A DNA stretch of 64,000 bases from contig NW_025407825.1 of the NCBI RefSeq assembly GCF_003324165.1, forward strand, positions 1 to 64,000. Direction: 5' to 3'. The notes under the pieces were generated by a model, which did not search any database, had not been told where the DNA came from, and saw only the letters and a list, made by a program, of their open reading frames with translations. The stretch is from Naegleria lovaniensis. Its lineage: Eukaryota; Heterolobosea; Eutetramitea; Acrasida; Naegleriidae. Position numbers and translations under genes: made by a program. This document shows positions 23,027-61,000 of the stretch, piece after piece (position 1 is the first letter of the stretch; each line of letters opens with the position of its first letter).

Positions 23027-24112
23027 TCAATTTTTCACTATTGGAAATACATTTGAAAGCGCGTTACCTGTCAAATCGAGTGATGTTAAATTTTTCCAAT
23101 TGCAACTCGAAGCCATATGAAAAGCACCCAACTCTCCAAGGTAATTGAAAGATAAGTCTAAGTGTGTTAATTGTTTCGAATTTTCACTCAACGAGAGGTA
23201 TCGAATGCCTTCTGAACCTATATGGTTACCATTCAAATTCAACGAAATTAAATTCTTTAAATATTCACTTGTGGCAATATATTTGGCACCTTCACGACCA
23301 ATGAAACACGAGCTCAAGCTCAAGGACGTCAAATGTTTCATATTGCTGCTCCTAGCAAGAGATTCCACACCGAGAGGGCCAATCTTGTTGAAGCTTAAAT
23401 CCAATAATGTCAAATTCTTATTGGCGATGATTTTGGTATCTTCTGGACCAATCACATTGAATCTTAATTTCAACATTGCTAACGTGTTCAAATGTTCACT
23501 ATTCACAATAGTTTCAAGTCCTTCACGTTCAATATTATTTTCTTCCAAATTCAAACAAGTTAAATGATTCAAATGTTCACTGTTCGCAATGTAAAGAGCA
23601 CCTAAATCACCCATTCGGTTGTCACTCAAATTCAAAAACATGATCTTTTGCAAATGTTCACTCTTGGCAATGGAATGGACACCTTCAGAGCCCATACGAC
23701 CACTCAATGTCAAATTCGTTAAATTTTTCAAACATGCACTTTGAACCAACGATTTCACAACTTGCTCGTCCAAGATCTTGTTGTTGTCCATCCAATGAAA
23801 AGAAGTTAAATTTTGAAAATTATTTTCATTTTGTGACATGAATTCGATCAATTTTGGAACGACTTGATGGGAACGAAGGTCGTTACGGAACAGCAAACTC
23901 AATGGAATTTGAAAGGATACTCGTCTCCATTGTTTTGAAATTTTCAAACTCACTCCGAGGATGAATTTAGAATCCAAAAAGTGAAGAATTTCGAAAATCG
24001 TGTCATTACAGAAAGGTCCGTTGAGAACAGGTTCATTTTGATTGCCAATCAGAGATGATCTCTTGTGACCATTGGATGAATATTCTCGTATTGTTTGTTG
24101 GTGTGTAATCAT
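23027..24112 (-). CDS. F-box / leucine-rich-repeat protein with frameshifted tail
   Basis: The 361-residue open frame begins with a polar lead, then an F-box (residues 30-75: FCNDTIFEILHFLDSKFIL, KISKQWRRVS), then about nine LRRs of 24 residues (LxxLxLxxNxIGxEGxxxIAxSEHLxx), the ribonuclease-inhibitor-like type. F-box-LRR proteins select substrates for SCF ubiquitin ligases. The frame stops in mid-repeat at 23027, but LRR sequence continues downstream on the minus strand in two other frames: one to about 22908 (SEKLKNLKSLDLSTNRIS), and another from about 22920 to a stop near 22839 (LSNKDVLSMLDGEYLNTL). Two single-base events would explain this. It could be a real 3' decay or sequencing error. 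It is head-to-head with the F-box/GTPase gene across 124 bp. Confidence 0.82.
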   Translation of the reverse strand: MITHQQTIREYSSNGHKRSSLIGNQNEPVLNGPFCNDTIFEILHFLDSKFILGVSLKISKQWRRVSFQIPLSLLFRNDLRSHQVVPKLIEFMSQNENNFQNLTSFHWMDNNKILDEQVVKSLVQSACLKNLTNLTLSGRMGSEGVHSIAKSEHLQKIMFLNLSDNRMGDLGALYIANSEHLNHLTCLNLEENNIEREGLETIVNSEHLNTLAMLKLRFNVIGPEDTKIIANKNLTLLDLSFNKIGPLGVESLARSSNMKHLTSLSLSSCFIGREGAKYIATSEYLKNLISLNLNGNHIGSEGIRYLSLSENSKQLTHLDLSFNYLGELGAFHMASSCNWKNLTSLDLTGNALSNVFPIVKN

Positions 24113-24236
24113 TTCATTGAGATGAGTTCAGTTGTTCTCTGAATTTTATTTGAGTTGCAAAAGAGTGTGACATCCTTAAAATTTTGCAGTGAGATTGAAT
24201 TTGAGATCATGAAGGAACATCAGTTACAAAAAAAAA

Positions 24237-25310
24237 ATGGGCAATTCAACAACAAAGACTCACGCCCAACCATCAACGAAAGAAAGTACTTGTATGAGTG
24301 ATGGTTCAGACAAAATAATTTGCAATTTGTTTCCGAATTATTTGCTGGTTTTCTCAACACTAAATCATGACGATGAAAAATTGAAAGTTCCCGACAAAGA
24401 AAAAGTATATAATTTCAAGAATTTGAGTATTTTGGAAGAATATTTACCTGATGAAATTATAATTTATATTTTACAATATTTACCAATGAAATGTGTGCTG
24501 AAGCTTGGAAGAGTTTCGAAAAACTTTTATAATTATTGGATCGAGTTTCCACAATTGTGGAACAATAATTCGGATCTGTGTACCATGTTGTACTTACCAC
24601 AGCGATATGAAAACAATCATCGAAAGAATTTGCTGTTTTTTCACAATGAATTTAAACCGAAAATTGTCAATGCATTCCAGTACAAGTCATCCAATAACGG
24701 TGCACCATTTGTGGTAAAATTCGTACTTGTTGGCTCTCAAAAGTGTGGCAAAAGTGTTCTTGCTGACCGAGTTTTCAAAGATATTCCCTATGAAGATAAC
24801 TATGTGAGTACCATTGGAGTTGAGTTTCGAAGTAAATTTTTACAACTCTCAGAGGAAGAACGATATGGTGTACAAGTATGGGATACGGCAGGAGATGTAA
24901 GATTTAGATCCTTCATTATGAGCTTTTTTAAAGGCGCCAAAGGTTTTTACTATTGCTTTGATCTCAGTGATCATTCATCCTTTGAAACTGCCCGTTCGAT
25001 ATTTGAGGATTGGAAGTCACACAATGGGATTGAAAAAGTTTACGAATATTTGGAATCGAATGATGCATGCCTGATACTACTAGGTCTGAAATCTGACCTT
25101 CCACACATGGTCACACAAGATGAAATTTTCAACTTTCTTGAAACCGTTATTGGAATCAGTACTGACAAGTATTTACACCATCACCGAATTCAATATTTTG
25201 AATTGAGCACAAAGAAGGATTCATTACAAGATTTGATATTTCCTTTTGCTTATGCGTGTACAATTTTGAACAAACCCCATTTCTTCTCAACTCCAAAAGT
25301 GTGCCATTGA
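24237..25310 (+). CDS. F-box / Rab-like GTPase fusion, copy 1
   Basis: This 357-residue protein starts right after an A-run. It begins MGNSTTK, which fits an N-myristoylation signal (Gly2, Thr6). The F-box occupies about 64-113 (YLPDEIIIYILQYLPMKCVL). A Ras/Rab-like G domain runs from 157 to 345: P-loop GSQKCGKS (166-173), switch I TIGVEF (192-197), and G3 WDTAGDVRF (215-223), where the catalytic Gln is replaced by Asp. G4 is LKSD (284-287) instead of NKxD and G5 is STK. Nucleotide binding looks possible but hydrolysis is probably impaired. There is no C-terminal prenylation cysteine pair, so membrane contact, if any, would be through the N-terminus. I infer a GTP-dependent SCF ubiquitin-ligase adaptor. 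A second copy lies at 30081. Confidence 0.85.
   Translation: MGNSTTKTHAQPSTKESTCMSDGSDKIICNLFPNYLLVFSTLNHDDEKLKVPDKEKVYNFKNLSILEEYLPDEIIIYILQYLPMKCVLKLGRVSKNFYNYWIEFPQLWNNNSDLCTMLYLPQRYENNHRKNLLFFHNEFKPKIVNAFQYKSSNNGAPFVVKFVLVGSQKCGKSVLADRVFKDIPYEDNYVSTIGVEFRSKFLQLSEEERYGVQVWDTAGDVRFRSFIMSFFKGAKGFYYCFDLSDHSSFETARSIFEDWKSHNGIEKVYEYLESNDACLILLGLKSDLPHMVTQDEIFNFLETVIGISTDKYLHHHRIQYFELSTKKDSLQDLIFPFAYACTILNKPHFFSTPKVCH
24519..24631. repeat. 113-bp identical block shared with 30399-30511
   Basis: Inside the F-box part of both F-box/GTPase genes, 113 consecutive bases are identical, including all synonymous positions over about 37 codons. The G-domain halves of the two genes share only about half of their residues. 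This pattern suggests recent gene conversion. Confidence 0.9.
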
Positions 25311-25564
25311 GACAGGCCTTAAACTGTTGATATTTGAAACATAGGATCGACCTTCTGCTGAAAGTGAACAGCAAATGGAAGTCGACTTGCATGTTATGTC
25401 TGACATTGTACGATTGTAAAAATGAAAATTATTGAATTTGTTTTTTCAATCAATTTGATGATCACTCTCCTTGCACTAATTCCGCTAATCAAAATGATTG
25501 TTGCTGAATGACTTGAAATAGCACTGACCAGTTTTACGAAACACAAGTTGTTGACCTCAAAAAA

Positions 25565-26776
25565 ATGTTCAAACAACTCCTTCTTCTCTCCGCCCTCATT
25601 CCCGGTGTCGGAATTGCATTACAGATTTATTGGAACAGACATCTCACTCTTCCTGTTATGATTTTTAGAAGTTTATTGAATACAATCATTGCTCGGAACA
25701 AGTATTTGGGACGATTGCAAGAAATGACTGTGCAAGAAAAGAAAAGACTCAACTATACGGAGAGTGTACCCATGATGGGAAGCGTGATGAGACCCATCTG
25801 GAAGGATTTGGATCTTGAGGCTAAATCTTTGAACAGTTTAGTGGCTTTTGCTGGACAATCTCAATTAAAATTGGACAAGTATGGGTTGAGAAAATCAATG
25901 GAACATCAAGCCTTGTATCCACCCATCTTGGCCGGAAGAAATTGTGAGAGTATTGAAGAGATTGAAAGCTTGAGAAAATCAATTTTTGTTCAAATGAAAG
26001 ATTTCAACTTGGACAAGAGTAAGGAACCCAAAGTATTGTTTTACATTCATGGAGGTGGAGGTTATGGAGGTTTGGCAGCTGGATTGCAAGCACGTGCTGT
26101 TGTTGAGTTTTTAAACGATGCAAGATATACTCATTCCATCAAGTACATGTTGTCTGTGAATTATCGTTTGCTTGGTTTGGATGAAAATGAAAAGAAGATG
26201 CGAGATGTGTATGCAGCAAATTTTGAGGATCAACTCGAAGACTGCTACAATGCTTATCAGTGGTTATTGAACGAGCGCCAATTTAAACCTCAAAATATTG
26301 TCATCATGGGAGACTCTTTTGGACCAGCGTTAGTGATGAATTTGTTGGCCAAGATTGGAGCCACTGCACAGGGACAACTTCCTCATGCAGTTGCAATGGT
26401 CTCTGGCTACTTTGATTTGAGTGGCAAGACATTGGGAGAAAATTATGATGAAGAAAATACCATTCTAGTGAGCAAGAATAATGTGGAGCTAATTCAAGGA
26501 CTCTATGTAACTGAGAAGCCTTCATTTTCTCCAATTAATTTTGACAGCACTGTCATTTCTTCCTTTAGCCAAACCAAATTACTTGTAGTTTACAGTAATC
26601 ACGAGGAGGGTACAGCTGACAATGTCAAGATGGTACAAACGTTGAAGAACGGTAAACATCCTCACATGCAAGTGATTGCTGAAAATGGCCATATTCATGG
26701 CTATCCATTATTCTTTTATTATTCACCTCAACTTAGAAAAACAATGGAAAAGATCATGGAATTTTTAGATCAATAG
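25565..26776 (+). CDS. Alpha/beta-hydrolase, hormone-sensitive-lipase-like esterase
   Basis: This is a 403-residue protein with an N-terminal hydrophobic anchor (residues 3-23, LLLLSALIPGVGIALQIYW). The oxyanion-hole motif HGGG is at 162-165 (FYIHGGGGYGG) and the nucleophile elbow GDSFG at 249-253 gives Ser251. A C-terminal histidine lies in NGHIHGYPLF. A catalytic Asp/Glu is likely in the segment before it (EEGTADN). HGGG plus GDSxG places it near the HSL / arylacetamide-deacetylase group, which hydrolyses ester bonds of small lipids at ER membranes. The start ATG follows an A-run. Length is normal. Substrate not predictable. Confidence 0.85.
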   Translation: MFKQLLLLSALIPGVGIALQIYWNRHLTLPVMIFRSLLNTIIARNKYLGRLQEMTVQEKKRLNYTESVPMMGSVMRPIWKDLDLEAKSLNSLVAFAGQSQLKLDKYGLRKSMEHQALYPPILAGRNCESIEEIESLRKSIFVQMKDFNLDKSKEPKVLFYIHGGGGYGGLAAGLQARAVVEFLNDARYTHSIKYMLSVNYRLLGLDENEKKMRDVYAANFEDQLEDCYNAYQWLLNERQFKPQNIVIMGDSFGPALVMNLLAKIGATAQGQLPHAVAMVSGYFDLSGKTLGENYDEENTILVSKNNVELIQGLYVTEKPSFSPINFDSTVISSFSQTKLLVVYSNHEEGTADNVKMVQTLKNGKHPHMQVIAENGHIHGYPLFFYYSPQLRKTMEKIMEFLDQ

Positions 26777-27024
26777 CAAATCAGACACAACATGTTGCAA
26801 ACAAAGTAGGGTTGTTAACAGTAAAGTGGGAAAGTATACTTCAAATATTAACAGGTTACCTGCTTGTTTTGAGCAACTGCTGTAAATGGAACGTGTCAAG
26901 TCCATCAATGAACAGATTGCGAAAATAAAGCAAGGATGGTTTATTATTGCTTTTTGAAATATCTATGATTAGTAATATTGGGTTAAATAATATTAATAGG
27001 TCTGACCGTAAGCGCTTATCTAAC

Positions 27025-27371
27025 CTCATCAAAGTCCTGAACAACGTGCTTGCGAAGTTGGTTGTGAGGTTCATCAAGCTGTGTGGGTGCTGTGTACATT
27101 AATCAACCACTTACTTGAAAAATCAATCACCGCTCTTTTATAAAGACCTACCTGAAACAATATCAAGTGATGAAATTAGAAGAGCCAGTGCAACCTCTAC
27201 TGAAAGACCAGGTGAACTTTGAATTTTTGAACACTCCAACATGTCTGCTCTCAGTCGTTCTTTTTCAGTGGAATTTCCTGCCAAAAGGTTATAAATATTC
27301 TGCAGATTATAGAACCGAATGATGTAAGTAAAAAGGTCTGGATTATTGGTTACTGGAAGAGAGATCACAGG
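27025..27371 (-). pseudogene. Remnant or unresolved spliced gene, unknown family
   Basis: Two exon-like blocks join in frame. Block 27371-27152 follows a TTTTTCTGCAG acceptor and ends at a GTAGGT donor. After a 62-nt gap, block 27089-27025 follows ACACAG and ends at GTTAGA. Together they encode 95 residues with protein-like composition (FYNLQNIYNLLAGNSTEKER; LDEPHNQLRKHVVQDFDE). A further tiny block with CAG/GTAACC borders lies near 26875. A possible upstream exon at about 27453-27416 (RDIEQQESTCEKE) ends at GTACTT. No start codon was found, and the next gene begins at 27648 on the other strand. It may be a decayed gene or a short multi-exon gene whose first exon I missed. Confidence 0.35.
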
Positions 27372-27647
27372 CTGCAGAAAAACAAGAGCTTTAAATCATC
27401 ATGTGAGACAGAAGTACCTCCTTCTCACAGGTTGATTCTTGCTGCTCAATGTCCCTTATTCAGAAAGTTGATTGTGGAAAATCTTCGAACAACAAACAGT
27501 GTTAAAGATTCCAATAAATAATAAATATTTGTCTTGCTCACAGTTCATGAAGAGACTCTTGTTTTGCATCTCTTGCAACACACGCCACCTTCACTTGAAC
27601 CAGAATTCGTCAAACGTCATCACACAACAAATCATCACACAAAAAAA

Positions 27648-29544
27648 ATGGCTTCTGGTGCTTTATTGAGATTAGAAACCGATCCTTCTTGTTCGCTTTG
27701 TTTTAATATCAATCAAATTGTGGTTGTGCCTTTGATTGATTTTGCTAATACGTGGAGGATTAGGGCAATCTTTCCGACAAATAATGAGGTGATTGATAGA
27801 TTTGAAATCTCTTTCAGAAAATTGTCTAAAAACAAGACCGAAAAAAGACCAACATGTATCGTTGAATACCCTCCAAAACCACAGCCACAATTCAATTTGT
27901 TCGCAGTTAATAGAATTAAAATTGTTGATCACAAAGTGAACCATCATGAATTCATTGTCGAGAATGAAACCTTTTCATTTACTACATATGAACTAACATT
28001 AGAACCCTCTATGGATATGATGCAAACATCATTCCCTGCTAAAAAACGGAAAATATTTGATGTTTCGTTGAAAACAAACAAGGATAACCGTTTTGTACAG
28101 AAATTAGTTGCTGAATTTTATATTGGTCTTGATGGATTTAATGTAGTAACTTTGCAGAACAAATTCAGAGGCTTTGAAGAAGCTTTGTCCTATTGTTTCA
28201 TACCCACATATGATCCCTTGAAGCGAATAGCCCTCTACTCCAAATTTCTTGAAAAAAAATATTCTCCAGAATGCGAATATATGTCACAGGAAGTGACTCC
28301 TATGAAGGGTTTTAAATGGATAGAAGAAGCCGGTAGTAATCCAAACTTAGAAAGTATGATAGAAATACTGAGCGAAGACCCATTTTTTATTCTATACACG
28401 CTTGGTTTTGATTCTTCTTATACTGATGAAGAAAAACAAGTTACATTAGATTACTTGTCTACAATTGATAGGATTCATCACATCGCTGAATATGGACGGT
28501 CATGGATGCTGGCATTTACATTGGTTCAATCATTACCTTTGTATCCGAAGCTGTTGTTGGCGAGAAAGAAAACTGGTTATGAGGCAATTTTTAGTGCTGC
28601 AAGTCGTATACTTTCAACAGATTTATTTAATCAGGGGGTAACAAAAGATGAGTTTATTAAGGCTTCAGTTTTGTTCTATTTCAAAACCAAATCATTGGAA
28701 ATCATTCCATGGGATTAATGTTATCAACACAATTGGTCACTACCAGCAACAAGATTCATTCTCTGATAGTTATTCTGAAAGATTTTGAAAAGATGGTTTC
28801 AGAATTTAAATTTGAATCCATTCAACAATTACATGAAATGAAATGGAAGAAGGATGAGAAGAAATTGAATGAATTGAAACAACAAATTGAAAAATATGGA
28901 GCACTTGACTTATCCGTGGGTGCTGTAGTATCAAATACCTTACAAGAAAGATCCAATGAATGGTTTTATGATGAGTCCATGACTACAGTTTCTATTCACA
29001 ACACTGCAGTCAAGATCGTCAAAATTAGGGGCGATTTTGATGATCACTTTGTTTTTAATAATACCAAGATGGACAATTGATCGTATCAATGGCAAGTCAA
29101 AATTGACCGTTTGGCTGGTTGCATTGGTGTTGGAGTGTCCACACAAGAACTTGTGTCATCAAGCACAATAAAAAGGAGTCGGGACAATCAAAACCGATAA
29201 AAGTACAAAAATTTCCTTTTTATTGTGCTCTAATAGTGATACATGGAATATGAATGAACAACATGAAGGGAATGGAATTCACAAAGGGTACTGTATTGGA
29301 ATTGGAAATGAATTGTGACACACGACAATTAACTATTCGAAAGGTGCATTGTAATAAATCCCATACAATCAACAACGTTGGGTTACCAGTCTATCCTTCT
29401 GTACTGCTGTCCAATGTCAACGATTCAGTCAGCTTTTGTGAAATGCTGGTTAGGAAGAAACCTTATTCATTTGTAATGGAACAACAAATTGAAATTCGAC
29501 AATGCCACAAATTAATTTATGAAATTTACGCAATGGACAAGTGA
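27648..29544 (+). pseudogene. SPRY-domain gene broken by frameshifts and a stop
   Basis: The start ATG follows an A-run. The first frame runs 27648-28718 and encodes 356 residues of an unrecognised N-terminal region. The sequence then continues in another frame from about 28700 (LQERSNEWFYDE; VKIVKIRGDFDDHFVFNN), meets an in-frame TGA at 29078-29080, and continues (SYQWQVKIDRLAGCIGVGV), which is the core of a SPRY domain. A third frame carries FLLCSNSDTWNMNEQHEG (about 29200-29270) and a fourth segment, 29254-29544, completes the SPRY fold (FTKGTVLELEMN; INNVGLPVYPSVLLSNVND). That is at least three frameshifts and one stop, too many for sequencing noise alone. SPRY domains bind proteins, often in ubiquitin ligases. 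A truncated N-terminal protein could still be made. Confidence 0.7.
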
Positions 29545-29601
29545 CATTAATAATTCACATAAAATTCATAGCAAGTTCTAATTCTATTCACACACACTCA
29601 C

Positions 29602-29963
29602 CTGAATGGTATCCGCAAAGAAATACCAAGAACGTTGACTGGTATAAATCGTAATGACGTTATCTTTTTGATTTTCAGAAAAAGTTTCTTGTGCTGTCAA
29701 GTGTCTAATCATTTGAATTCAAACTGACATAATCATTGAGGATCTACGAAATAATACAAAGAAGTTCCCATCACACAGAAACGTTCTTTCCATGACTTGA
29801 AGGAACCTCCTTGTTTGGTCTACCAACCATACTTGTTGTAATCCAAATTTGTTTGTGAATATGTAGCTTCTTTCAATTCATCGACCCAACAATCTTTTTC
29901 ATCGTCTGAATTGACTGAAATGTAAAATTTTGAAGAATGTAATGAAATTTTGAATGCATAGGG
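29602..29963 (-). pseudogene. Decayed tandem PH-domain gene fragment
   Basis: Reading the minus strand from 29963, one frame gives the end of a PH domain (YAFKISLHSSKFYISVNSDD, then CWVDELKEA), a linker (SQTNLDYNKYGW), an in-frame TAG, and the start of a second PH domain (TKQGGSFKSWKERFCVMGTS, LYYFVDPQ) before a TGA near 29735. A shifted frame at 29711-29602 supplies the end of that domain (NVITIYTSQRSWYFFADTIQ) and stops at a strong GTGAGT donor. PH domains bind phosphoinositides. Two stops and one shift show that this copy is dead, and the donor indicates that the parent gene had an intron there. It lies between the broken SPRY gene and the second F-box/GTPase. Confidence 0.6.
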
Positions 29964-30080
29964 ACAATGCTATTCATGAACAGCACTTGTGACCTGATGT
30001 TAGGAAAAGCTATGGATCGTTGGTGTTGGTCTTACTTGTTGATTATGTGGTAATTGTGGATATTTCATCAACAAAAAAAT

Positions 30081-31205
30081 ATGGGCAATTTTGGATCAGC
30101 CAAGTTGCATCAACCACCTCCACATTCTGCCCCTCTCATAGGAATGTCATATGATACCGCCAACATTCCTCCTCAAACTTCGGCTTCAAAAAAGATAATC
30201 CATGATTTATTTCCGACAGATTATCCATTAGTTTATTCAACGAGTCATGATAATGAAAAATTAAAAGTTCCCGATAAAGAAAAAGTGTATAATTTCAAGA
30301 ATTTGAGCATTTTGGAAGAATATTTACCTGATGAAATTATGATTAATATTTTAAAATTTTTACCAATGAAATGTGTGCTGCAACTTGGAAGAGTTTCAAA
30401 AAACTTTTATAATTATTGGATCGAGTTTCCACAATTGTGGAACAATAATTCGGATCTGTGTACCATGTTGTACTTACCACAGCGATATGAAAACAATCAT
30501 CGAAAGAATTTTCTGTTTTTTCTCAATGAATTTAAACCGAAAATTGTGAATGTATTTCAAAATTTGTCAGAGAAAAGTAAGAAAGGGCCTCCAATTGTTG
30601 TCAAGTGTATGCTTATTGGGCCATCAAGGTGCGGAAAAAGTGCTCTTGTTGACAGGGCTTGCCAAAACATTCCGTTCCGAGATACCTATACCAAAACCAT
30701 TGGTACTGAGCTTCGCATGAAACATCTATCTAATGCCAAAGAGGACGAACAATATACTATACAATTGTGGGATATGGGAGAAGCAAGTTTTAAAAATATC
30801 ATTACCTACCATTTCAGAGAACCTAAAGGTTATTTCTATTGCTTTGATCTCAATGACCATTCATCGTTCAACAATATCATGACAATGTATGAGGATTGGA
30901 AAACACAAAATAGAGTTGAAAATCTGTGTGAATATTTGGAATCAGAGGATTCATGTTTAATACTACTGGGACTGAAATCTGATCTTTCACACAATGTCAC
31001 AAGAGAAGAAATTGTTATCTTCTTGGAAACGATTACATGTAGCACTGAGAAAACTTTGCACACTTGTCGAGTCCAGTATTTTGAATTGAGTAGCAAGACC
31101 TGCTCTGTTCAAGATTTACTATTTCCTTTTGTGTATGCATGTACCATTTTGCCATTAAGCAAACCATTGGGAAATAAAGAAACGTTAATACCCGTTGCCA
31201 AATAG
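30081..31205 (+). CDS. F-box / Rab-like GTPase fusion, copy 2 (degenerate G3)
   Basis: This 374-residue paralogue of the gene at 24237 is read from the ATG at 30081 because it opens MGNFGSAK, a textbook N-myristoylation signal (Gly2, Ser6), and follows an A-rich leader. The F-box (about 76-125) is almost identical to copy 1. In the G domain the P-loop GPSRCGKS (180-187) is intact and switch I reads TIGTEL, but G3 has become WDMGEA (230-235), losing the DxxG glycine. G4 is LKSD, as in copy 1. It probably binds nucleotide weakly or not at all and may act as a pseudo-GTPase. There is no C-terminal prenylation motif (ends LIPVAK). Confidence 0.83.
   Translation: MGNFGSAKLHQPPPHSAPLIGMSYDTANIPPQTSASKKIIHDLFPTDYPLVYSTSHDNEKLKVPDKEKVYNFKNLSILEEYLPDEIMINILKFLPMKCVLQLGRVSKNFYNYWIEFPQLWNNNSDLCTMLYLPQRYENNHRKNFLFFLNEFKPKIVNVFQNLSEKSKKGPPIVVKCMLIGPSRCGKSALVDRACQNIPFRDTYTKTIGTELRMKHLSNAKEDEQYTIQLWDMGEASFKNIITYHFREPKGYFYCFDLNDHSSFNNIMTMYEDWKTQNRVENLCEYLESEDSCLILLGLKSDLSHNVTREEIVIFLETITCSTEKTLHTCRVQYFELSSKTCSVQDLLFPFVYACTILPLSKPLGNKETLIPVAK
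30399..30511. repeat. 113-bp identical block shared with 24519-24631
   Basis: This is the second member of the identical block in the F-box region. Flanking F-box sequence is also about 90% or more identical by eye, from about 30245 to 30550. Confidence 0.9.
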
Positions 31206-39756: not shown

Positions 39757-41664
39757 CTAGACAGTGAGAGATTTCTTTGAACCATTGACGTTATCGTCAC
39801 TATACGTAATAATGTTTGGATTTCCTTGTCCAAAATATTTGATCACAATGAGAACAATTTTTGTGAATTCTTCTTTCTCTTGTGGCGTAAAATGAGAGAA
39901 ATTTTCGAGAATCCAAACCAGTAATTGATTCATGTTCGCTCCAATCGTGTCATTTGGAGGTTTATCAATGGCAAGTAACAAGTGATACAACCAGTCGCAT
40001 CGTAACACATTATTGGATTCCTTACTTTGCACAAGTAAATAATCTGTAATCCATTGTTGCTTTTGTTGTTCGGAAGCAACACCCGTTTCGTGTGTAGGAG
40101 TTTCTTCATGATCTTCATGGGTTTCATCCTCATGTTCATCGGATGGTGTGAAAAGGGAACTAGCCTTAGTTGGAACTCGTCGCAATAAGGAATTATTATG
40201 AAAATTACTCACTGTCCAATGAATCATCTTGTTGAATAGAGCATGTGTAGTGACATAGTCCAAATAGCTGAGAAGCAAATTTTGAGTGGGCCTGTGACCC
40301 TGGTTAGAAGACTGTGAACATTGTGGTGGTGTTGCTGAATCTCCCTGTTGAGTATGTTTCTCCGCTGTTGTTGTTGTTGTTGGCATTGCTCGAGTGCTCT
40401 CCAGTTGTTGTTCTGTAGTCATGTCACTCGTTGAAAGGTCAACTGCTGCTTGTTCTTGGTCGTGTTTTTCATCCACCTCCTCACCCTCACCCGAATCAGA
40501 CATGGTCTCACTTGTGATGGTAGTGACTGTTGCTTCAGTGGTTACCTTATTTGCTTGAGTACCTCCTCGTTTTCTTCCTCTACGATTTTTCTTCTTCTTT
40601 TTGATGGTTTCTGGATTGTTATGTTGTGCCTGTTTGTTGATCATTCGCTCCCATAAAACATAAACATTCTCCTCCCCGAGACAATACGTTTTCCACTCAT
40701 CATAATTTCCATTGAGCCGAGGACATTTGGAGAATTCATTAGACTTTTGAGAGGTACTGGATGATGAGCCCTTTGATCTTAATTTCTTGTCGAGTTCAAG
40801 CTGAACATGTTCTCTCGTCTTGGTAAAATTTGTTAAGAATTGATGTTCCCATTGTTTTGTAATAAGAATTGGAGATTGATTGGTGTCACTGGTTCCCATA
40901 AACGCATCAAATAAATGGAGAGCTCCATACAGTGATGAATCCAAATCTCTAATACTTGTCCGATTTTTCTCAAATTGTTTAGAATCAATATTGGTTGCTA
41001 CTACTGTCTTGGCACAATAATTTTGTGCTTCATATCGAACATTCAATAAATAACGTTGTGCTTCATTGTCCAATTCATCGTCCAAGTTTTCTTCTTCATC
41101 GTGTTGCATGGGATCAGATGATTCTTGAGGAGTAACTTGAGCATTGTCAGAGGTCTTCTTTAAATCATGACTGAAAAATGATTTAAGCCATTCCTTCTCG
41201 GGAGGTTGCCAACCAATTTTCTTTACTGTTTGTTCATCCACAATATAAAATGCTTTTTGATAATGTTGTTCATCATGTTCCTCATTGATATTTGCTTGTT
41301 GATTTGATTGATTAGATTTCTGAGATGGCTTCTTTTTCTTTCGTTTTCTCTTTTTTGAATTTTCAGTTCCTGCAGAGTGTAGTTCCTCATCTTGGTCCGC
41401 AATTATTGTTTGCTGCTCCTGCTGTTCATTGTTGTCCTCACCATCATCGTCATTCATTTCTTGTAATAATTCTATCGGATTTAAATGAATGGGAACAAAC
41501 GTATCATGATCCTCGGGAATGGATTCTTCCATATGATCCTCATAGTTTTCTTGATCCAGTTCCTCATGATTATTTTCATCTTCTAAATCCTCAACATTTT
41601 CTTCTCGTTGTTGCTGAGTTACGACATCTTCTTGCTCCGAAAGCTTGACTCGCTTTTTAGACAT
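39757..41664 (-). CDS. GEMIN2: Gemin2/SIP1 (Brr1-like) snRNP assembly factor
   Basis: This 635-residue protein starts after an A-run. The first 200 residues are acidic and Lys/Gln-rich. The Gemin2 core then appears in order: RYLLNVRYEAQN and TVVATNIDSKQF (the N-terminal helix and strand that contact Sm proteins), WEHQFLTNFTKTREHV, YDEWKTYCLGEENVYVLWER, NLLLSYLDYVTTH, and CDWLYHLLLAIDKPPND with a final helix ending VIKYFGQGNP. Human Gemin2 has the same blocks in 280 residues; here low-complexity inserts (about 350-460 and 500-540) make it longer. Gemin2 binds the Sm pentamer and SMN during spliceosomal snRNP assembly, which fits a genome with introns. Confidence 0.85.
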   Translation of the reverse strand: MSKKRVKLSEQEDVVTQQQREENVEDLEDENNHEELDQENYEDHMEESIPEDHDTFVPIHLNPIELLQEMNDDDGEDNNEQQEQQTIIADQDEELHSAGTENSKKRKRKKKKPSQKSNQSNQQANINEEHDEQHYQKAFYIVDEQTVKKIGWQPPEKEWLKSFFSHDLKKTSDNAQVTPQESSDPMQHDEEENLDDELDNEAQRYLLNVRYEAQNYCAKTVVATNIDSKQFEKNRTSIRDLDSSLYGALHLFDAFMGTSDTNQSPILITKQWEHQFLTNFTKTREHVQLELDKKLRSKGSSSSTSQKSNEFSKCPRLNGNYDEWKTYCLGEENVYVLWERMINKQAQHNNPETIKKKKKNRRGRKRGGTQANKVTTEATVTTITSETMSDSGEGEEVDEKHDQEQAAVDLSTSDMTTEQQLESTRAMPTTTTTAEKHTQQGDSATPPQCSQSSNQGHRPTQNLLLSYLDYVTTHALFNKMIHWTVSNFHNNSLLRRVPTKASSLFTPSDEHEDETHEDHEETPTHETGVASEQQKQQWITDYLLVQSKESNNVLRCDWLYHLLLAIDKPPNDTIGANMNQLLVWILENFSHFTPQEKEEFTKIVLIVIKYFGQGNPNIITYSDDNVNGSKKSLTV

Positions 41665-42140
41665 TTTTTTTTAATTTCTTTCATTTAATTCATCTTCAAT
41701 GAAATCAATTGGGTGTTCGTCGTTGAACATGAATGAATATTTAAATAAGCTAAATGGTTTGATCCTTTGTTTTTGGACTCGAAATGTCACAAGAAAAATG
41801 CCATTTGTTTGTTTTTGAACAATTGTATAGAAACATTTCATTTTCGTATCATTGCCAGAGAGGTCACCCACAATGATTCGAACTCAAATCCAGTCAAATC
41901 GCCAAAATGTGTTTTAAACAGTATTTTGTTCACTTAATTGGATTTTAAAAATTCCATATCAGGTCATCTTTTGTTAACGACCCATTTTTGGACAATTCAT
42001 ATTTTTTTCCTTATTTAATTTTCAAAAAAGCATCTCAGCTCGAGACTTCATGATAACAAAAATTCAGAAGAAACACACGCGCTCTCAAAAAAGAGAAACA
42101 CAACATTCCGATCATCATTGGTTCATTCTAAAAAACCATC
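41665..42140. other. Divergent promoter region with minus-strand small ORF
   Basis: This 476-bp region separates Gemin2 (minus) and the Myb gene (plus). On the minus strand an ORF of 56 codons from an ATG (MKCFYTIVQKQTNGIF) ends at 41671, just six bases before the Gemin2 ATG, so it would be an upstream ORF of that mRNA. Its composition is protein-like but it matches nothing I know. Confidence 0.35.
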
Positions 42141-57470: not shown

Positions 57471-58047
57471 GTTTGTGATGTTGGTGGTAACTCTTGTGAA
57501 GGCAATCTTTACGATGATGATAATACACGTTGGAGAACATGGAAGAAGAAAACGAACACACTTCATCCTCAAATTGGAGAAGTTGGAGCGTATTTATTGT
57601 GTTTAAAAAGATAATGGAATATGGAGAGAAAATGTGTTAAGATGGATCATGACTTGATTTCACAAATTTCCTTCCAGATCTACAAAGTTGTATTTCCAAG
57701 TTTAGACTTTCAGGGAATTTCCTTTTTGAAGTGTGTTGATTAATAATGATCCGTTCGTCAACTTAAAGCCAATGTTCATCGACCTCAATTTATTCCAATA
57801 GACACTGTGGAGTTGTCAAATTGGAAACAACCTCAAAAAAACAGTATCACTCTCTCACAAAGGCGCCAAAGTTTACCCGCCAAAATTTGAGCATTTTCAT
57901 TACATTAAAAAAAATCCTCCAATCAACAACCTGAACCACATTTTCGGTTGGAGCACCATCCTTCTTCTTGTAACTTTGAAAAAAGCCTCATCAAAGGTGG
58001 TATTAATACAATACATCGGACGATAACCTCCTAGTAAACGAATAACA
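57471..58047. promoter_or_regulatory. Divergent promoter with two E2F-like sites
   Basis: GGCGCCAAA (57862-57870) and CCCGCCAAA (57876-57884) are both full reverse-strand matches to TTTSSCGC, six bases apart, about 165 bp before the coiled-coil gene. Paired E2F sites are typical of cell-cycle promoters in animals and plants. Nothing else is seen. Confidence 0.5.
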
Positions 58048-61000
58048 ATGAATTATTCGGACGAATTTGATGTTACAAGTAGTTCAGATGCTTCAGTTGA
58101 GGACTCTATGGATAAGGAACAATTGGTACGTGAGCTTTTGCCATCGATAAAATAATAATTCATCTTATTGAAATATCATTTGATCCAGAAATTGTATCTT
58201 AGTAGAGGAGAAAAACGATTGGAAGCAACAAACAAATTACTCGGAGAAGCAAGAAATGCCATCTTACAGCTCCAAAGTCAACATTTAGACAGCAGGTATG
58301 TCATTAACTTCAATCGTTAATCACCGTCAACCATTTTTTGATTGTTTTAAAAAATGTCTCAAAACAATCTGCACCCAAAGACCTTCACCCATCCGATCCA
58401 CAAGAACTTTAAATGACAGCTTGGCAAACTCACTGGCCGACTCTACGGTGAGCACGGATAGTATCAGTGCAATACAAAATCAATTACAATTCATCACATC
58501 ACAAATGCAAAACATGCCAGCTAAACAACAAAATCAAATCATTGCACTCAAAGAAAAGAATGCGAAAATGGAGCAAGAATTACAAGAATTGCGAAAATTA
58601 TTAGCGGAAAGAGAAGAAGATCAATCCAATCAACAATTTTCCTCTAAAATCCATAGTATGGATCGAGAGATTCAAGATTTAAAACTCGAAAATAATCAAA
58701 TGAAAGATGAAGTCAAAGAGTATGAACGCAAAATTGATGAACTCACTAGAGAAAATGTAAATTTGTTGTATAGGATTGATGAGAATCAATTGAATGAAGA
58801 GAGAGCTGCTAGAGAGCGATCTACTCTGCACAAAAAAGAGATTGACAAGCTCGTACTACAAAAAAGTGACCTCGAAAACAAAATATCCAATCTCGAAAAT
58901 ACTATTAACAAATTGATGAGAGACCATGAAACTGAAGTGTCCGAGTTGACTACAGATTTTGAGAAAAAACTTGCTCAACAAAAGGCCGAGATCAACAAGA
59001 CCATCAAGCTCATGGAAGAAGAAAAACAAGAGCTAATACAACAACAAAAAGACCTCTCTGAAAAATTCACTCAAGACAAGTTAAACCTCTCTGAAACATT
59101 GAGTTTGGATAAGAAGCAGCTCATCGAACAACTCAATGAAGAAAAGAGATCACAAATTGAAAAATTGGTCAATGAAAAACACGAACTTATTGACCAATTC
59201 AATCACGAAAAGCTCAAATTGATGCAAGAGGCCATTCACGAAAAGAATGAAATGATGGAGCGAAGTAAGAAAGAACGCGATGCCTTGATTGAAAAGAACA
59301 AGCAAGAAGTGGAACTAATTCAAGAAAAGTTGAGATCAGAAAAGGACAAGTTTGACACGGAACGAGCACTTCTCATGGAGAAGCACTCCAAAGAGAAGGA
59401 CGCTCTCGTTGAAAAGTTCACAACAGTCCTCAAAGAGAAGGAAGAAATGGTAAAGGAAAAGGAACGACTTGTCTACAAGTACAATAATGAGATCAATAGC
59501 ACTATTGAGAAGTGTAAAATGGAAGTAGAGGCATTGCAGTCATCAAGCGAAAGGGAGAAGAAGCAGCTCATTCAACAACATGACAATGAAAGAAGCATGC
59601 TCATTGCTCAACACGAAAAGGAGAAGGCAACCATTCGATCTAGGCTCGAGGCAGAAGTAAATGAATTATTGGACAAGCATGCTAATGAAAAGGAGCAATT
59701 ACAAATTGAATTCCAAGAACAAAATCTCTCAACTGTTCAAAGATATGAACAAGAAAAGAAGAGGCTCATAGAGAGTTATGAAATTCAAATTAAATCTCTC
59801 AAAGAAAGAATGGATCATGAAAAGTCAGTGGTACTCGACACGTGTGAAAAGGAAAAGTCCAACGCTGATTCTCAACGAGTATTTTATGAAAATGAAATTC
59901 AAAAGATGTTAGAAAATCACTCGTCTGCCATGAATGAATTGAAACATGCTCACGAAAAGTTGTTGACAGAATCGAAAGAGACTCTCGATCAGGAAAGATC
60001 TACACACAAGTTAGAAAAGCTTAGATTGGAGAATGAAATTGAACGATTGAGAGAACAATTCAATCTCACTCAAAATAACCTTATTGAAAAATATGAAGAT
60101 GAAAAGAAACATTCACTCCAAAGAAGCGAAGAGGAAAAGAATCAATTGAAGAGTCAACACGAATCAGAGAAGAAGACACTCACCGAACATTTGACACTGG
60201 AAAGAAAGCAAAAAGATTTATTACAAACACAATACGAAAAACTCATGGAGGAAAATCAACAATTGACCAAGAAACTTGTGGTTGAGAGCAAACAAGGCAA
60301 GCTTTCAGATAAGCTTGAAGTTAATTTCAAGAAGGAATTGACCAAACTCCATAAGGATCATTTAGTCGCTGTTGAAAATCTGAAAGGTGCTTTACGATTT
60401 TGTGGCGGATCAGATTCCGATGTCAAATTCCTCAAGGAGGTGTTTTTCAAGGAGTTAGAGCGATTGAAGAGTGTCTTGGCACAAATCGAAGAGTCCAATT
60501 ATGTTCATACTGCAGAGGAAATGAAGAGCATGAAGGATTATTGCTTACATTTGGAGAATGAGATTGCAGCTCTCTATGAACAAAATAGAATCCTCAATGG
60601 CAAGATGAGAAATATTACCAAGTCCATTTCGTTAGAGGATGCATCCATTTCCAAGCAGCCTCCTCTCAAAAAAGAAGTTGCATTTAATGATAGTATCTCG
60701 ACCACAAGTGATGAAGTGGGTCTGGATCAATCCATGATTCATCAACAATCGTTTGACGATCAAATGGAACTCTTGAACCAACAAACTTCAGATATTATTC
60801 AAGAAAGCGATCAAAAGATTCATAACTTCCTTCATAACATTACTATCATGTCAGAGAAACACGCCACAATTATTGACACTCTCAAGAAGAAGCACATTCA
60901 AATGAAGAAGATTATTCAAATGGAGTACTGGACTGCACTACGAAAGCTCAGATTGAAACCAGCCAGCTCTGTATCTAAAATTCCAAGAGCTAAGCGAGCC

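Follow-up and report, generated by a model that had tools for sequence, protein, structure and literature searches.

Small GTPases joined to ubiquitin-ligase modules have been described before. The FRP family of Euglenozoa, found in trypanosomes and euglenids, includes TbFRP, a FYVE-F-box-GTPase protein that is related to Rab18/Ypt6 and has no CAAX end; its authors did not find an FRP orthologue in Naegleria gruberi (PMC3593210). Rab40, which originated from Rab18 in bilaterians, combines a Rab domain with a SOCS box, works with a Cul5 ligase, and ubiquitylates its effectors (PMC10509765). RhoBTB proteins combine an atypical Rho domain with BTB and work with Cul3; RhoBTB2 binds GTP and RhoBTB3 binds ATP, and RhoBTB2 appears, among its motif changes, to have lost two residues by phosphate/magnesium region 3 (PMC4931677). 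Fusions of ARF-family proteins with an F-box or BTB domain have also been mentioned (PMC8358228), and Rab5B of Plasmodium falciparum (PfRab5B) is an N-myristoylated Rab without the C-terminal geranylgeranylation motif (PMC3912013). Here, we analyzed two genes of Naegleria lovaniensis, termed copy 1 and copy 2, each of which joins an F-box to a Rab-like G domain behind a predicted N-myristoylation signal. Both lie in the window, a stretch of 64,000 nucleotides that covers positions 1 to 64,000 of the forward strand of contig NW_025407825.1 (assembly GCF_003324165.1) and makes up the first 64 kb of what we call contig C4. The genome searched was the whole assembly of 30.69 Mb in 97 contigs.

As the original prediction from the DNA letters had claimed, both genes carry an F-box and a Ras/Rab-type G domain in an uninterrupted single frame. 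Pfam placed the F-box (PF00646, curated cut-off 20.5 bits) at residues 70 to 101 of copy 1 (E 3.8e-7, 30.2 bits) and 82 to 113 of copy 2 (E 7.6e-7, 29.2 bits), and the Ras-family domain (PF00071, curated cut-off 21.6 bits) at residues 161 to 329 of copy 1 (E 9.8e-24, 84.2 bits) and 175 to 341 of copy 2 (E 1.7e-18, 67.1 bits). In single-sequence searches, Rab1-type proteins were the best solved-structure matches of both copy 1 (E 4.8e-19) and copy 2 (E 6.5e-11), and a profile built from five members of the window clade (described below) ranked yeast Ypt6 first among solved structures (E 5.9e-20). No Pfam match to FYVE, SOCS-box, or BTB was found in the two copies, with FYVE and SOCS checked at E up to 1. 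Aligned over 328 columns, the copies show 66% identity. Together with a third copy elsewhere on contig C4 (copy 3), they gave ratios of nonsynonymous to synonymous substitution (dN/dS) of 0.20 to 0.36 for every pair and in both domains (0.25 to 0.35 for the G domain alone), where the values for copy 3 include the period before a break in its frame. These ratios indicate that neither domain drifts freely and that purifying selection acts on both. Because the domain E-values are strong, both genes retain the fusion, and both domains show such ratios among copies 1 to 3, the fusion in copies 1 and 2 is beyond chance. The Pfam search that had been proposed as a check was thus positive. The structure prediction proposed beside it was run with two-sequence alignments for the two window proteins and gave no usable model: the mean predicted local distance difference test (pLDDT) scores were 38.3 and 35.8, and the models speak neither for nor against a G fold.

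The ends of the two proteins also agreed with the original prediction. The C-termini are TPKVCH in copy 1 and LIPVAK in copy 2, neither of which is a Rab-type or CAAX prenylation end, and the predicted absence of prenylation cysteines was confirmed. In both copies, the MGN methionine is the first in-frame ATG downstream of a stop and is therefore the predicted N-terminus. The fit of the MGN starts to N-myristoylation was assessed with the PROSITE pattern in 107 closed frames that begin at their first ATG and have no fewer than 150 amino acids, taken from both strands of the window and the fetched loci with chance frames included. Four frames start with MG, and only three fit the pattern, all of them in the F-box-GTPase family (copy 1, copy 2, and a member on contig C40); as copies 1 and 2 are duplicates, these are fewer than three independent cases. 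In copy 3, the sequence MGNSTTKT sits in a short frame that stops before the F-box, and the F-box and G domain occupy another, overlapping frame. Around the start codon, copies 1 and 3 share a block of 32 bases at 97% identity, and a blastn comparison of the two listed no match from this block to window position 24390.

Querying the genome with copy 1, Ras, and F-box and reading the fetched loci yielded at least 17 candidate F-box-GTPase fusions, of which seven belong to the window clade, five to another Rab-like clade, and five to the Rho type; such family counts are lower bounds, as the genome searches scored the best candidates only. The window clade comprises group I (copies 1 to 3) and group II (C40, C4 at 115 kb, C6, and C8, named by contig). 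Group III consists of C19a, C19b, C2, C36, and C41, and group IV, the Rho type, of C39, C22, C14, C51, and C10. One open frame spans both domains in nine of the 17 (copies 1 to 3, C4 at 115 kb, C6, C8, C36, C41, and C51), spread over six contigs. In the remaining eight, the domains lie in adjoining exons joined by inferred introns, with C10 the least certain. The F-box or F-box-like match exceeded the curated Pfam cut-off in 14 of the 17 and was slightly under it in C8, C51, and C19b, the last of which was above the cut-off in the genome-wide scan. The C-termini of group IV are CAAX-like in the four of five that were seen (for example, KKCYLQ, KKCLFQ, and KNKCSIQ), and C39 has a Kelch match N-terminal to its F-box. 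F-box-Rho fusions with CAAX-like ends were observed at loci L068, L069, L070, and L051, the first of which also has a Kelch match; these appear to form a separate fusion lineage within the Rho family. Matches on four pairs of contigs, each of one large and one small contig (C13/C68, C11/C69, C27/C77, and C64/C75), were identical or near-identical. This suggests that the paired contigs are duplicated or haplotype contigs, which could have inflated the gene counts.

A maximum likelihood tree built from 31 G domains united groups I and II in one clade (support 95/87) and placed group III in its own (100/99). Group IV fell in the Rho clade (99/98) beside one plain Rho and two long GTPases, and the window copies lay outside that clade. 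A single origin that would place all 17 fusions in one clade was rejected by the approximately unbiased (AU) test (p 4e-6), which did not reject groups I, II, and III as one clade (p 0.17) or group IV as one clade (p 0.18); some rows of the alignment have long branches, which limits all three values. Since the one-clade tree is rejected, the joining of F-box to GTPase is best described, on this tree, by at least two origins or swaps. Two pattern scans of viral contigs gave 4 and 81 matching stretches, none of which was confirmed as a relative. A scan of genome contigs gave 154 pattern matches with one confirmed, a Lokiarchaeota locus with 26% identity in the G domain only, which we take as a probable ordinary small GTPase. 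Because neither the viral nor the genome-contig scans revealed a fusion relative, viral or bacterial transfer is without support here.

The G motifs of the two genes were read correctly in the original prediction, as judged by alignment. In copy 1, Asp replaces the catalytic Gln (WDTAGDVRF), in copy 2 one residue is deleted from DxxG (WDM-GE, within WDMGEA), and both have LKSD at G4, so that the canonical G3 DTAGQ and G4 NKxD occur in neither. Across the family, all 17 fusions retain the P-loop GxxxxGK[ST], which is read across an inferred intron in C40, C19a, C19b, C2, and C10. The G4 Asp is likewise kept in 17 of 17 and the G4 Lys in 16, and the G4 Asn is found in none; its position holds L, M, or A in groups I and II and T in groups III and IV. 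Threonine at this position is usual in Rho proteins. DxxGQ is present in 0 of 17, the Gln column holding D, E, G, V, T, S, or P; in C36, a Gln aligns to this column, but two preceding residues including the Gly are gone. The Gly of DxxG is gone or displaced in five members (copy 2, C6, C8, C36, and C39).

Whether this loss marks the fusions depended on the control. The first control comprised 30 distinct fetched GTPases without a listed F-box nearby, with G3 visible in 23, and kept the Gln in 21 of these 23 (Fisher p 2e-9 against the fusions; 4e-8 if C36 is counted as a Gln keeper); only top scorers were fetched, so this control is biased to canonical proteins. The second control consisted of 11 stretches picked for long open frames, also without a listed F-box nearby (L073 to L083). 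There, DxxGQ was kept in 1 of 11 (Fisher p 0.39; 1.0 with C36 as a Gln keeper), where L081, whose G3 was not identifiable, is counted among the 10 lacking Gln and L078, Rho-like with a CAAX-like end, may have an F-box further upstream than the kilobase that was read. Loss of Gln as a special mark of the F-box fusion was therefore dropped. As the second control resembles the fusions, the loss of DxxGQ seems to go with long, divergent GTPases in general. The original prediction had contrasted a GTP-locked copy 1 with a pseudo-GTPase copy 2, and this contrast did not survive: with DxxGQ absent from every fusion and from 10 of 11 long GTPases, the two are no special pair. The status of copy 2 as a pseudo-GTPase is unproven, given its kept P-loop and G4 Asp and the purifying selection on it.

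The F-box part and the G domain of copies 1 and 2 differ in their histories. Over residues 48 to 147, the two copies share 94.7% of their DNA (dN 0.033, dS 0.16), and in the G domain they share 69.5% (dN 0.31, dS 0.87). In the F-box part, copy 3 has a dS of about 0.6 to each of them. The F-box part of copy 1 is thus closest to copy 2, whereas the G-domain tree pairs copy 1 with copy 3 (95/87). The discordance suggests that the neighboring copies 1 and 2 exchanged their F-box part by gene conversion, a recent homogenization.

From these features, we propose that both genes encode membrane-tethered Skp1-cullin-F-box (SCF) adaptors whose Rab-like G domain does not cycle and is probably nucleotide-bound, a reading to which we give about an even chance. 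Genes for Skp1-like proteins, several cullins, and an N-myristoyltransferase are present in the genome. In the proposed scheme, the N-terminal Gly would be myristoylated, as its motif suggests, and this would stand in for the prenyl anchor of ordinary Rabs. The F-box would bind Skp1 and hence a cullin ligase, as expected from its domain family and from the presence of the machinery genes. Because it retains the P-loop and G4 Asp, the G domain would still bind guanine nucleotide; because the catalytic Gln is gone, it would hydrolyze the nucleotide poorly or not at all and so present a fixed, non-cycling interaction surface. Proteins that bind this Rab-like surface on the membrane would then be ubiquitylated, by analogy with Rab40 in cullin-RING ligase 5 (CRL5) and its effectors. 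The G domain would thus be the substrate- or effector-binding part, with the copies sharing the ligase end and varying the G-domain end.

Several points weigh against this proposal. The predicted myristoyl anchor is not general in the window clade, since C6 and C8, of the same clade, start without MG. Nucleotide binding may be weak or absent, as copy 2 is short in DxxG and both copies lack the G4 Asn, and the loss of DxxGQ is common among long GTPases. F-box proteins can act outside SCF, and the low-pLDDT models do not give the likely packing of the domains in copies 1 and 2. In addition, the F-box could act in cis, with SCF ubiquitylating its own GTPase; turnover, not GTP hydrolysis, would then be the off-switch, and the protein would be a substrate rather than an adaptor. 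The TbFRP authors suggest that the F-box may be coupled to rapid proteolysis of TbFRP (PMC3593210), and control of RhoBTB through autoinhibition and auto-ubiquitination has been proposed (PMC4931677). Another off-switch would also be useful to 17 fusions that all miss DxxGQ. However, the long GTPases of the second control have lost DxxGQ with no listed F-box, so an F-box off-switch is not needed, and the near-identical F-box with diverged G domains in copies 1 and 2 fits a shared ligase with differing targets at least equally well. We regard action in cis as unlikely.

Decay of the G domains within a rapidly turning-over F-box gene family, which would leave remnants that bind no nucleotide and serve only as a protein-binding fold, is quite unlikely. 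The intact P-loop and G4 Asp in all 17 members and the G-domain dN/dS for the three pairs of copies 1 to 3 argue against decay, and RhoBTB2 binds GTP despite its changed G motifs (PMC4931677). The absence of both DxxGQ and the G4 Asn throughout the family, the missing or displaced DxxG Gly in five members, and the frame of copy 3, broken upstream of its F-box, would fit such decay. An annotation artefact, in which adjoining F-box and GTPase genes are read as one frame, is extremely unlikely, as the junction is uninterrupted in copies 1 and 2 and a single frame recurs in nine of the 17 fusions on six contigs. SCF adaptors tethered to a membrane thus remain our preferred reading of the two genes, whose features are compiled below.

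Features of the two F-box-GTPase genes and of a neighboring gene in the window
Feature	Position	Strand	Basis
Copy 1, F-box and Rab-like GTPase gene, 357 aa, one open frame	24237..25310	+	Pfam, PDB Rab match, first in-frame ATG
Copy 1 predicted N-myristoylation segment MGNSTTKT	24237..24260	+	Pattern test; 24230-24261 97% identical to copy 3 start
Copy 1 stretch near-identical to copy 2 (aa 48-147, F-box and following part)	24378..24677	+	DNA identity and dS
Copy 1 F-box	24444..24539	+	PF00646
Copy 1 G domain (GSQKCGKS, STIGVEF, WDTAGDVRF, GLKSD)	24717..25223	+	PF00071, motif alignment
Copy 2, F-box and Rab-like GTPase gene, 374 aa, one open frame	30081..31205	+	Pfam, PDB Rab match
Copy 2 predicted N-myristoylation segment MGNFGSAK	30081..30104	+	Pattern test
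Copy 2 F-box	30324..30419	+	PF00646
Copy 2 G domain (GPSRCGKS, TIGTEL, WDMGEASF one residue shorter, GLKSD)	30603..31103	+	PF00071, motif alignment
Leucine-rich-repeat (LRR) gene, divergent to copy 1	23027..24127	-	N-terminus resembles an F-box on visual inspection only; Pfam gave no F-box match

Copy 1 is paired with an LRR gene in head-to-head orientation, and so is copy 3. The second such pair, about 130 kb off on C4, lies at locus L003 (C4:151967-155917), with the LRR gene at L003 2839-3951 and copy 3 at L003 1492-2590, and the DNA of the two LRR genes is about 70% identical. As the LRR gene is found head to head with both copies, it appears that a divergent two-gene unit was duplicated. 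The frame of copy 3 is broken near reverse-strand 1543-1560 of L003, and this copy is either truncated or damaged. The interval 24237-31205 also spans unrelated open frames between copies 1 and 2, among them a 397-amino-acid frame at window 27525-28718 for which Pfam listed nothing up to E 0.05. Elsewhere in the window, the AT skew is marked against the rest at 40001-42000 (-0.233) and 58001-60000 (+0.316).

The original prediction knew of no described system with such a regulatory arrangement, but the arrangement is not undescribed in view of TbFRP (PMC3593210), Rab40/CRL5, and RhoBTB with cullin-RING ligase 3 (CRL3). The idea of a GTPase-ligase adaptor is thus not wholly new, and the interest would lie in its scale, its repeated origin, and its predicted myristoyl anchor. 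Since the references to the small-GTPase supplement of the N. fowleri genome paper include reviews on F-box, BTB, and RhoBTB (PMC8296547), F-box-GTPase fusions may already be on record for Naegleria in that supplement. As a broader picture, which we offer tentatively and hold to be somewhat unlikely as a whole, the genome would encode at least 17 GTPase-guided SCF ligases that arose through at least two fusions, Rab-like and Rho. In them, the former switch would now be a fixed, non-hydrolyzing targeting surface anchored by myristate or prenyl groups; the Rab-like branch may share a Discoba ancestor with the trypanosome FRP, and FYVE and myristoyl would be two alternative means of anchoring. 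The family would then form a large-scale F-box (SCF) counterpart to the GTPase-ligase adaptors Rab40 (Cul5) and RhoBTB (Cul3), which suggests that G domains without the catalytic Gln may repeatedly serve as ubiquitin-ligase targeting modules. Copies 1 and 2, with nearly the same F-box and different G domains, offer a natural test.

Compared with the known systems, the window genes share with Rab40/CRL5 the joining of a Rab GTPase to a module that recruits a cullin ligase; in Rab40, this is a C-terminal SOCS box for Cul5, and in the window genes it is an F-box, expected to act through Skp1 and a cullin (PMC10509765). With RhoBTB/CRL3, they share a cullin-adaptor domain joined to an atypical G domain whose G motifs are altered, but RhoBTB is of Rho type, carries BTB domains for Cul3, and has no F-box (PMC4931677). 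The ARF fusions are likewise lineage-specific unions of a Ras-superfamily G domain with a ubiquitin-ligase domain and are of ARF type, in contrast to the Rab type of the window genes (PMC8358228). PfRab5B resembles them in its N-myristoyl signal in place of a prenylation end, which is only predicted for the window genes; an F-box, which they carry, is not mentioned for PfRab5B (PMC3912013). The comparison with TbFRP was made by description, with no euglenozoan sequence included. Both have an F-box followed by a Rab-like GTPase, lack a prenylation end, and are anchored at the N-terminus, as predicted here (PMC3593210). TbFRP has a Rab18/Ypt6-like GTPase, and the window-clade profile also finds Ypt6 best, although single-sequence searches place Rab1-type proteins first. 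The window genes differ from TbFRP in having no FYVE and a predicted myristoyl anchor instead. They thereby bear on heterolobosean relatives of the euglenozoan FRP, which the FRP paper did not find (PMC3593210).

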